From positions 2,533,001-2,597,000 of the forward strand of contig NZ_CP151951.1 of assembly GCF_038592985.1 (NCBI RefSeq): a stretch of DNA of 64,000 bases, read 5' to 3'. Made by a program: the position numbers and the translations under genes. The notes under the pieces are model-generated. The model was given only the letters and a program-made list of their open reading frames with translations. It searched no databases and had not been told where the DNA came from. This document shows positions 40,207-41,568 of this stretch, piece by piece; positions within the stretch are counted from its first letter, which is position 1; the number at the start of each line of letters is the position of its first letter. Source of the DNA: Paenibacillus sp. FSL R10-2782 (GTDB lineage Bacteria > Bacillota > Bacilli > Paenibacillales > Paenibacillaceae).

Positions 40207-40410
40207 TCATGCTTGCTCCTTTAATAGTTAAATTGGGTGTAAGGCTTGGGTAAGCCATCCTTTGATTAGACTGTAAAAAGAACCAAAAGTTTCATAATCC
40301 ATTTCATTTTCATTTTCAGTTCTTTTTTGAGTAAGAGGGATGCTTAAATTTAGTAGTACGACAACCTGTTGTATCACTTTCTAATGTAATAGTCGCTTGC
40401 CTGGTTTCGT

Positions 40411-40418
40411 GCTATAAT
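40411..40418 (+). promoter_or_regulatory. Extended -10 promoter element for the leader ORF-yidC operon
   Basis: TGCTATAAT is a perfect TATAAT with an extended TGn element. The -35 region (TAGTCG near 40390) is weak, which an extended -10 can compensate. Transcription would begin about 25 bases before the leader ORF start. Confidence 0.55.
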
Positions 40419-40448
40419 CGTAGCAACGAATCGAAGGAGGTGAATCCC

Positions 40449-40769
40449 TTGTTTGAGCTTCAGGACCTGCTCCCCTACTTATTTACGATCGGCTTGCTGT
40501 GTACGGTAACCTACGCATATCTCGCTCATTTGCACGGCAATGTGCCTGAATGCTGGATAGAAGGCGGGGCCGTGCGGTCGCATGCTTCTCCGCTGATGCC
40601 GTTAACTGCCCGCGGGCAGGACATGCCTGTCCGGCTGGCACGTCATATCCGGCGGAAGGAAGCGCCGGATGAAGACGCGTCAGATTGTTCCCCCTTGTTG
40701 AACGATGGCACAGCCAATCAACGAGGAGGAACATATGAAACGATTCAAGGGATTCACCTTTTGGGGTAA
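40449..40769 (+). CDS. MifM-like regulatory leader peptide upstream of yidC (predicted)
   Basis: I chose the TTG at 40449, with GGAGG eight bases upstream (40436-40440). The 106-residue product has one N-terminal transmembrane helix (residues about 7-28, LLPYLFTIGLLCTVTYAYLA), then a basic, then an acidic soluble stretch (ARHIRRKEAPDEDASDC; D74-E75-D76). The frame runs over the yidC ribosome site and ends 35 bases inside yidC. In B. subtilis, MifM is a small membrane protein encoded just before yidC2; its nascent chain stalls at acidic codons near its C-terminus when insertion fails, opening a hairpin that hides the yidC2 ribosome site. Here the same parts are present: membrane segment, acidic patch and hairpin. 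The overall sequence is not one I can align to MifM with confidence. The alternative is a plain translationally coupled small membrane protein. Confidence 0.7.
   Translation: MFELQDLLPYLFTIGLLCTVTYAYLAHLHGNVPECWIEGGAVRSHASPLMPLTARGQDMPVRLARHIRRKEAPDEDASDCSPLLNDGTANQRGGTYETIQGIHLLG
40687..40732 (+). promoter_or_regulatory. Hairpin sequestering the yidC Shine-Dalgarno
   Basis: GTTCCCCCTTGTTG (40687-40700) pairs with CAACGAGGAGGAAC (40719-40732) through 13 of 14 positions (one G-U, one C-A mismatch) around an 18-base loop. The 3' arm contains the whole GGAGG of yidC, two bases before its ATG. A ribosome on the upstream frame near its acidic DED codons (40668-40676) would reach the foot of the 5' arm. 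Confidence 0.75.
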
Positions 40770-41568
40770 AAAAGAACGGATATTCGGAATTATGGTAGCG
40801 CTGGCGGTGGTTATGCTGCTTTCCGGCTGCGGCGCGAATGCTGCGGAGATTAATGCACAGACACCCGGATTTTTTAATCATTATGTGGTGTTCCCGCTAT
40901 CCTGGCTCATTCAGCAATTAGCGCAATGGTTTGGCGGAAGCTTTGGACTGGCGATCATGTCATTGACGTTAATCGTCCGTCTGGCGTTACTGCCGCTTAT
41001 GATGCGCCAAACTCGTGCTCAACAGGGGATGAAGCGCAAAATGAGCGCTATGCAGCCCGACTTAGACCGAATTAAGAAGAAGTACGAAAATAAGAAGGAT
41101 GCTGTCAGCCAGCAGAGTATGCAGCAGGAAATGATGTCACTTTACAAAGAGCATCAATTTAATCCGCTGAATATCGGCTGTCTGCCTGTTCTCATTCAGC
41201 TACCCATATTGAGCGGTATGTACACAGCCATCCGCTTAACCCCGGAACTGGCGTCTCATTCGTTCCTATGGTTCCGGCTCGGACAGCCGGACTGGATTTT
41301 AGCGATCATCGTCGCAGTCGTTTATTTGGCACAGGCCAAGCTATCCCAGCTTCAAATGACGGCTGACCAGCGCAAGCAGTTTGCGATCATGGGATATCTT
41401 TCGCCCATTATGATGGCTGTTTTTTCTTTTAATGCGCCTGCTGCCATGCCGTTATACTGGACGGTAAGTGGTACCTTTTTACTGTTGCAGTCGCTATGGT
41501 TCCGTAGACGCTATCCAACGGAGGAAGCAGAGGATAAGGTTAAGCTTGGAGAAGCTACGGCAACCTAA
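40735..41568 (+). CDS. yidC: Membrane protein insertase YidC/OxaA
   Basis: The start is the ATG at 40735 (MKRFKG), with GAGGAGG upstream inside the hairpin. The 277-residue product has a lipoprotein signal (VVMLLSGC), so it is anchored by a lipidated Cys. The five-helix YidC core carries the conserved Arg of the hydrophilic groove in LTLIVRLALLPL, and a charged cytoplasmic hairpin (MKRKMSAMQPDLDRIKKKYENKK). It inserts and folds inner-membrane proteins alone or with SecYEG. Paenibacillus species usually have two paralogues. The leader-peptide arrangement suggests this is the inducible copy, functionally like B. subtilis YidC2 (YqjG). A terminator follows. Confidence 0.92.
   Translation: MKRFKGFTFWGKKERIFGIMVALAVVMLLSGCGANAAEINAQTPGFFNHYVVFPLSWLIQQLAQWFGGSFGLAIMSLTLIVRLALLPLMMRQTRAQQGMKRKMSAMQPDLDRIKKKYENKKDAVSQQSMQQEMMSLYKEHQFNPLNIGCLPVLIQLPILSGMYTAIRLTPELASHSFLWFRLGQPDWILAIIVAVVYLAQAKLSQLQMTADQRKQFAIMGYLSPIMMAVFSFNAPAAMPLYWTVSGTFLLLQSLWFRRRYPTEEAEDKVKLGEATAT

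Follow-up and report, generated by a model that had tools for sequence, protein, structure and literature searches.

Organisation of the yidC2 locus

In the window, which is the entire stretch of 64,000 nucleotides that was analysed, a leader reading frame of 106 aa (40449..40769, forward strand; stop codon at 40767-40769) lies directly upstream of yidC2 (40735..41568, forward strand). The latter gene encodes a secondary YidC insertase of 277 aa (PF02096, E 1.1e-43; TIGR03592, E 1.3e-50) and is the proposed target of regulation; the leader itself is a candidate arrest peptide of the MifM type. It starts with a TTG at 40449, behind the near-perfect Shine-Dalgarno sequence AAGGAGGTGA (40434..40443, forward strand), and Shine-Dalgarno-like sequences were also seen in relatives. 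A GTG in the same frame is present at 40440, but it is located within this Shine-Dalgarno sequence. The leader overlaps yidC2, whose ATG is at 40735, by 35 nt. The first-pass annotation had described a frame of 106 residues with a strong ribosome-binding site directly before yidC, a single membrane helix and a run of the frame into yidC, and all of these features were found again in our analysis.

An extended -10 promoter element, TGCTATAAT (40410..40418, forward strand), ends 30 nt 5' of the leader start. With a regular expression, a TATAAT-like element was detected 28-61 nt 5' of the leader start in 19 of 26 loci, and none was detected in the other seven (L105, L116, L117, L120, L127, L130 and L133). 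The leader starts of relatives were picked by a script that scores Shine-Dalgarno matches and, by this script's choice, TTG is the start in 90 of 106 leader loci.

The leader has one hydrophobic segment, which a hydropathy scan places at about codons 7-25 (40467..40523, forward strand) and which is predicted to span the membrane, its best 19-residue mean hydropathy of 1.61 being only moderate. This value exceeds 1.6 in 60 of 75 distinct leader proteins; at L105, the best hydropathy window is located elsewhere than the N-terminal one. The N-terminal flank of the segment carries a charge of -2 and the C-terminal part a charge of +3, suggesting an N-out/C-in orientation. Judged by charge alone, the N-terminal flank is neutral or negative in all 75 distinct leaders and the C-terminal part is positive in 49 of them. 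The leader had no matches in Pfam or NCBIfam up to an E-value of 1, and Rfam likewise gave none at E-values up to 1 across 40300-40900. A phage origin was considered and rejected, as the core pattern was found in 26 stretches of viral contigs and none of these was confirmed as a relative.

A hairpin over the yidC2 Shine-Dalgarno sequence

The Shine-Dalgarno sequence of yidC2, AGGAGG (40724..40729, forward strand), is buried completely in a hairpin with a 5' arm at 40686..40701 and a 3' arm, which holds this sequence, at 40718..40733 (both forward strand), as judged from folding, regional structures and covariation. The hairpin consists of six base pairs (40686-40691/40728-40733) and nine base pairs (40693-40701/40718-40726), with a 1x1 internal loop between them. 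The first-pass annotation had correctly placed a hairpin over the yidC Shine-Dalgarno sequence, but its size, given as 14 positions at 40687-40732, had to be extended to 15 pairs at 40686-40733. The region 40670-40750 folds at -31.3 kcal/mol, versus -15.0 +/- 2.9 kcal/mol in shuffled sequences (z = -5.6), and none of 200 shuffles was as good. Together with the covariation described below, these energies rule out a chance hairpin.

Since the available loci are partly of the same species, stem counts were based on 69 distinct regions from the core to the yidC start, with identical regions taken once. In the corresponding alignment (A2), 87.4% of the cells of a 10-pair stem are paired, versus 76.5% in shuffles, and when the stem registers were slid only 28.6-72.5% were paired. 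The misregister by MAFFT of some divergent stems in this alignment, for example that of L127, lowers these pair counts. Changes on both sides were observed in 7 of the 10 stem pairs, which are the compensatory changes that had been named beforehand as a check of the sensor reading. The double-changed cells numbered 63, versus 17.7 +/- 3.3 in shuffles that ignore kinship, and none of 500 shuffles reached this number. The count of double-changed pairs was less striking, as 41 of the 500 shuffles reached seven. Examples of compensation include L026 and L136 (C-G to U-A), and L069 and L123 with several pairs each.

Occurrence of the leader and association with a second YidC

Two YidC genes are present in the host genome (G000), which is a single contig of 5.6 Mb. 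The gene that fits the YidC family model better is at G000:C1:5601122-5601664, at a distance of about 2 kb from the end of the contig; yidC2 is the second. A search with the window's own leader protein as the query gave matches in 35 of 59 genomes, the host genome included. Among 296 genomes of the order, from 48 genera, a profile of 30 leader frames from these first matches (A1) detected the leader in 96 genomes and 14 genera; all 37 named loci among the matches are labelled Paenibacillus, and it is from these names that the order and family labels used here were inferred. One of the loci, L050 (NZ_JAGGNR010000008.1), is titled Paenibacillus polymyxa ISL-58 and has a leader of 116 aa of the type found in amylolyticus and xylanexedens loci, which is unlike the 106-aa type of terrae and brasilensis loci; the name of this record may be wrong.

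Among the 59 genomes, 39 encode YidC twice and 20 once, and a further profile (A6) detected the leader in 36. All of these leaders belong to genomes with two YidC proteins (36 of 39), and none was found in the 20 genomes with one. As seen when the two lists were compared by eye, each of the 36 leaders shares contig and strand with the second, lower-scoring YidC gene and is located directly upstream of it. In the sampled genus, G018 and G020 are the two members with one YidC, and they are also the two that have no leader. Three genomes with two YidC proteins (G047, G055 and G056) gave no leader match at E-values up to 0.01. The second YidC proteins of G047 and G055 are very divergent, with scores of 100.5 and 105.2 bits, respectively.

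Conserved core, fixed spacing and selection on the leader protein

The second half of the leader contains a conserved core, VRLARHIRRKEAPDEDASDC (codons 61-80; 40629..40688, forward strand), which was delimited by alignment, dN/dS values and the RNA model and is the proposed arrest sequence. In an alignment of 30 sequences, R65, R68, R69, E71, P73, D74, D76 and C80 of this half are invariant. The same is true for L84, Q91, G93 and G94, the invariance of which can be explained by the stem. In a wider set of 33 leaders, P73 alone is invariant, with R69 and D74 nearly so.

The core ends at residue 75-81 in 106 of 107 loci (at residue 76 in 79 of these), L053 with its truncated frame and no recognised core being left out of the 106. 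The distance from the core to the yidC start is 50-64 nt in 104 of 106 loci, the two left out (L110 and L118) having no yidC start according to the script. The membrane segment and the core are separated by a poorly conserved spacer with a median of 51 residues (5-95% range 47-53; 75 distinct proteins), which is more than 30 residues and near the median of MifM. The overall length of the leader varies from 82 to 150 aa across loci, with the starts chosen by the script.

Selection was assessed in two clades, clade A with 15 loci (13 distinct) and clade B with 45 loci (34 distinct). The dN/dS values for clades A and B were, respectively, 0.06 and 0.05 for the membrane segment, 0.26 and 0.20 for the spacer, and 0.03 and 0.13 for codons 61-80; this is the purifying selection on the acidic core that the first-pass annotation had proposed to look for. 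For the stem codons, the values were 0.60 and 1.28, with depressed dS, and for the overlap with yidC they were 0.88 and 2.00, with little synonymous change. The low synonymous change in the stem and the overlap presumably reflects constraints that the RNA and the other gene impose. Thus, the protein is constrained up to the core and hardly beyond it, a pattern expected for an arrest peptide but not for a protein that acts in its entirety.

These data bear on the view that the leader is a working small membrane protein, for example a partner of YidC, that is co-transcribed with yidC2, the hairpin merely setting the expression ratio of the two. The strong conservation of the membrane segment (dN/dS 0.05-0.06) would agree with such a function. 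However, the constraint on the protein stops at the core, the length of the leader is variable, with L127, L129 and L131 stopping a few codons past the core, and a stem that sequesters the Shine-Dalgarno sequence is located at a nearly fixed distance 3' of the core. We therefore regard a working membrane protein as highly improbable, and a monitoring substrate remains our preferred reading of the leader.

Continuation of the leader frame into yidC2

In 62 of the 69 distinct loci, the leader extends 31-163 nt beyond the yidC start, and in the other seven (L120, L122, L126, L127, L129, L131 and L132) it ends before yidC. L118, which is outside the 69, likewise stops early. The overlap is also present in 6 of the 7 loci from other families that have yidC. 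Between the core and the yidC start, a stop codon in the leader frame was found in 7 of the 69 loci, and stops in the two other frames were found in 49 and 32 loci. When the letters of the loop were shuffled, 22.7 loci would be expected to have a stop in the leader frame, an estimate that ignores kinship. The leader frame is thus kept free of stops in more loci than expected by chance, with the caveat that the loci are not independent of one another. The simplest explanation would be that termination in the loop would leave the stem open, whereas a ribosome that passes would let it close behind.

A frame that extends through the stem into yidC is common in genes with ordinary translational coupling, and its occurrence in 62 of the 69 distinct loci could be read in this way: any ribosome on the leader would open the stem for yidC2, and the sequence of the peptide would be irrelevant. 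However, coupling leaves unexplained why there is strong purifying selection on the membrane segment and the core and none past the stem, why the core ends at residue 75-81, and why the leader is tied to the second YidC. It is, in our view, a very unlikely account of the locus compared with a nascent-chain sensor of the MifM type.

Sequence relationship with MifM

A profile of 33 leaders (A3) was searched against 398 Bacilli genomes without use of genomic context. Of the 35 matches, 27 were in the same family and 8 elsewhere, the latter with E-values of 3e-9 to 2.5e-4; a yidC frame follows directly in seven of these eight. In the remaining one, L141 (G396:C1:160242-162642), the beginning of yidC seems to have been lost by a deletion: relative to the closely related L140, about 27 codons including the yidC start are apparently missing and the leader frame continues, and the script found no open frame of more than 150 aa on the leader strand of this region.

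In profile comparisons, A3 matched the seven upstream open reading frames (uORFs) from outside the family at 99.1%, and these in turn matched Bacillus MifM at 59% in the same functional register. The direct comparison of A3 with 17 Bacillus MifM sequences by hhalign gave 66% with an E-value of 5.6e-5, which applies to a single comparison, and placed RHIRRKEAPDEDAS on KVFRMNSPVNDEED, with MifM K76-D89 aligned on R65-S78 of the window. The important residues of MifM are reported to lie between R69 and A90, and stalling to occur at codons 89-92 (PMC6037786). As K76-D89 is the arrest segment of MifM, the functional register of this alignment is right. W73 of MifM falls on R62 of the window, and 15 of 85 distinct proteins have a Trp at this position when a fixed offset is used. 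The criterion described for MifM is a five-residue window with a charge below -0.3 within residues 70-100 (PMC10987492), and by a simple count of K, R, D and E such a window is present in 85 of 85 distinct leaders.

Searches of Bacillus genomes with profile A6 are regarded as supporting evidence only, because in some of them, for example at G696:C1:4076749, the best match is elsewhere. Of 44 Bacillus genomes, only 27 had a match to this profile at the mifM locus (E-values 0.005-0.12, threshold 1), and the genome with a MifM identical to that of B. subtilis had none there at the same threshold. The matches elsewhere are to a frame of 116 aa, far from mifM, in genomes of the genus Bacillus (G696:C1:4076749-4076967, G694:C1:4069415-4069633 and G700:C1:3716819-3717037), with E-values of 4e-4 to 3e-3 that may be due to chance. 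The B. subtilis MifM sequence matched locus L159 at 100%, where mifM lies in front of a frame of 275 aa that was recognised as YidC by eye.

At the sequence level, the direct connection to MifM is thus weak, and homology to MifM proper rests on the intermediates. This leaves room for a separate origin of the same mechanism, i.e. a convergence on the MifM design like that of CliM or ApcA, which would contest the family name and not the mechanism. Such an origin would be in line with the weak direct profile match to Bacillus MifM (66%) and with the arrest peptides of other motifs that are described before yidC in other groups (PMC10987492, PMC13183943). The uORFs that precede yidC in other Bacilli speak against it as intermediates, with matches of 99.1% to A3 and of 59% to Bacillus MifM and with an agreeing functional register, and we consider convergence unlikely.

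Species-specific stalling on MifM is reported to be decided by the uL22 hairpin (PMC10987492). This hairpin is nearly identical in the host genome and in the Bacillus genome with the identical MifM, so that the ribosomal tunnel is at least no bar to MifM-like arrest. In G044, a leader-bearing genome from another family, the uL22 stretch departs more.

Predicted position of the stalled ribosome

If the leading edge of the ribosome is taken as +15 from the P site, a ribosome with the final D of the DED (codon 76) in this site has its edge at about 40689, at the base of the outer stem. With codons 77, 78, 79 and 80 in the P site, the edge is at 40692, 40695, 40698 and 40701, the last of these being the end of the 5' arm. 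Covering most of the 5' arm thus needs codons 78-80 in the P site, while codon 77 leaves the stem half-open in the model.

The accessibility of the yidC2 Shine-Dalgarno sequence was modelled for the 69 regions, with neither tRNA nor helicase action included. Without a ribosome, the median accessibility was 0.17, and in none of the regions was it above 0.5. With the last acidic residue in the P site, the median was 0.23, and it rose to 0.50 one codon later and to 0.93 two codons later, where 59 of the 69 regions were above 0.5; it fell back to 0.56-0.63 at +3 to +6 codons, and to 0.56-0.67 when +7 is included. For L001, the values at +1 to +4 were 0.50, 0.98, 0.96 and 0.96. These stronger signals come from a model that ends at the start codon; an earlier model with 40 nt of yidC added was weaker, with medians of just 0.34-0.41 between +2 and +10. 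Applied to MifM, the model that ends at the start codon gave 0.96 at D89 and 0.66, 0.55 and 0.55 at the next three codons, these being the known stall sites of MifM.

The modelling therefore favours a stall at about codons 78-80 over one at codons 74-76. A stall near D74-D76, as put forward in the first-pass annotation, is not favoured, as the stem in the model stays closed until later codons occupy the P site; the related statement that a ribosome there would reach the foot of the 5' arm is correct, with its edge at about 40689 for D76, but most of the arm would be covered only from codons 78-80. In the hhalign register, MifM residues 89-92 fall on residues 78-81 of the window, in agreement with the RNA model.

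Proposed mechanism

Genomic context, spacing, profile comparison, selection and stem covariation support the earlier reading of the locus as a MifM-type sensor. Judged from the sequence, the leader is very probably a monitoring substrate of this type, an assessment that covers the mechanism and not the descent. In the proposed mechanism, the N-terminal helix of the leader would be a client of YidC that inserts N-out/C-in, and the core, about 51 residues past the helix, would halt the ribosome with approximately codons 78-80 in the P site. As long as insertion works, the pull on the helix would free the chain, the ribosome would proceed, and the hairpin would re-form over the Shine-Dalgarno sequence and keep yidC2 expression low. 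Since the frame spans the hairpin and 35 nt of yidC2, the released ribosome would also cross the yidC2 start and stop beyond it. When insertion fails, the stalled ribosome would cover the 5' arm, expose the Shine-Dalgarno sequence and thereby allow yidC2 to be translated.

The overlap could conceivably be a selected second gate, in which the released ribosome sweeps the yidC2 site, neither holding the stem open nor admitting a 30S subunit, but we offer this idea only tentatively. If it is true, yidC2 would be shut off more tightly than by B. subtilis mifM, and the short leaders that do not overlap yidC would represent a simplified form.

Should the proposed mechanism be true, Paenibacillus and its relatives would join the bacteria in which nascent-chain stalling mediates feedback on YidC. 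The leaders also amount to 85 distinct natural versions of a single proposed arrest peptide, in which the residues that must be kept are set apart from those dictated by the RNA stem. The published MMseqs2 cluster of MifM comprises 572 proteins (PMC10987492). Paenibacillus is not named in the main texts of PMC10987492, PMC7897499 and PMC13183943, and the 592 Firmicutes genomes of PMC10987492 may well include it. Our searches of one literature collection returned no paper that contains both MifM and Paenibacillus, no title on this leader, and no occurrence of the MifM acidic motif as a literal string.

Comparison with known YidC-controlling arrest peptides

We consider the system very likely to be a sensor of the known MifM kind, in a layout in which the leader overlaps yidC2. 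MifM of B. subtilis arrests the ribosome that translates it when membrane insertion is failing, and expression of the second yidC gene is thereby turned on. As in B. subtilis, a small uORF precedes the secondary yidC gene (yidC2/yqjG in that species) in a genome with two YidC genes. The leader shares with MifM an N-terminal membrane segment and an arrest-like segment of about 20 residues with an acidic run at its end, and the distance from the membrane segment to the acidic residues is 51 residues versus a published median of 54 for MifM (PMC10987492). In both cases, a stem covers the yidC Shine-Dalgarno sequence, the acidic run ending 51 nt (mifM) or 58 nt (window) before the yidC start.

Several differences should be noted. 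The acidic run is about 12 residues nearer to the N-terminus (residues 74-76, versus 86-89 in MifM), the core reads RRKEAPDED where MifM has FRMNSPVNDEED, the leader starts with TTG, the Trp of MifM is not kept, and the stall is a predicted one. Most prominently, the leader overlaps yidC2 and reads through the whole stem, whereas a mifM of the B. subtilis type (L159) ends 30 nt before yidC2; the first-pass annotation had rightly pointed out that the frame extends beyond the DED, unlike MifM. A frame that ends before yidC, with arrest a few codons 5' of its stop codon, characterises mifM of B. subtilis but is not among the published criteria for classification. The overlapping layout may therefore be a variant of the known MifM kind. 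In most of the loci examined, the leader passes the RNA switch and enters the gene that it would control, which is something that the SecM/MifM scheme does not need.

Two other systems are comparable. CliM of Clostridia (uC_KYxIW) is also encoded by a uORF before yidC, with a stem over the yidC start and a membrane segment (PMC13183943), but it has a K-Y-x-I-W motif and belongs to another class of bacteria. ApcA of Actinobacteria is an arrest peptide that is encoded 5' of yidC2 and contains one or two membrane segments (PMC7897499), and it differs by its R-A-P-G motif (PMC10987492). The short leaders of one genus (g18: L127, L129, L131 and L148-L152) stop a few codons past the acidic run and have a W-I-x-R-x-x-R-R core close to WIRKVFRMN of MifM; in the script's reading, L127, L129 and L131 start with CTG. 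These short leaders are a natural link between the overlapping and the short layouts.
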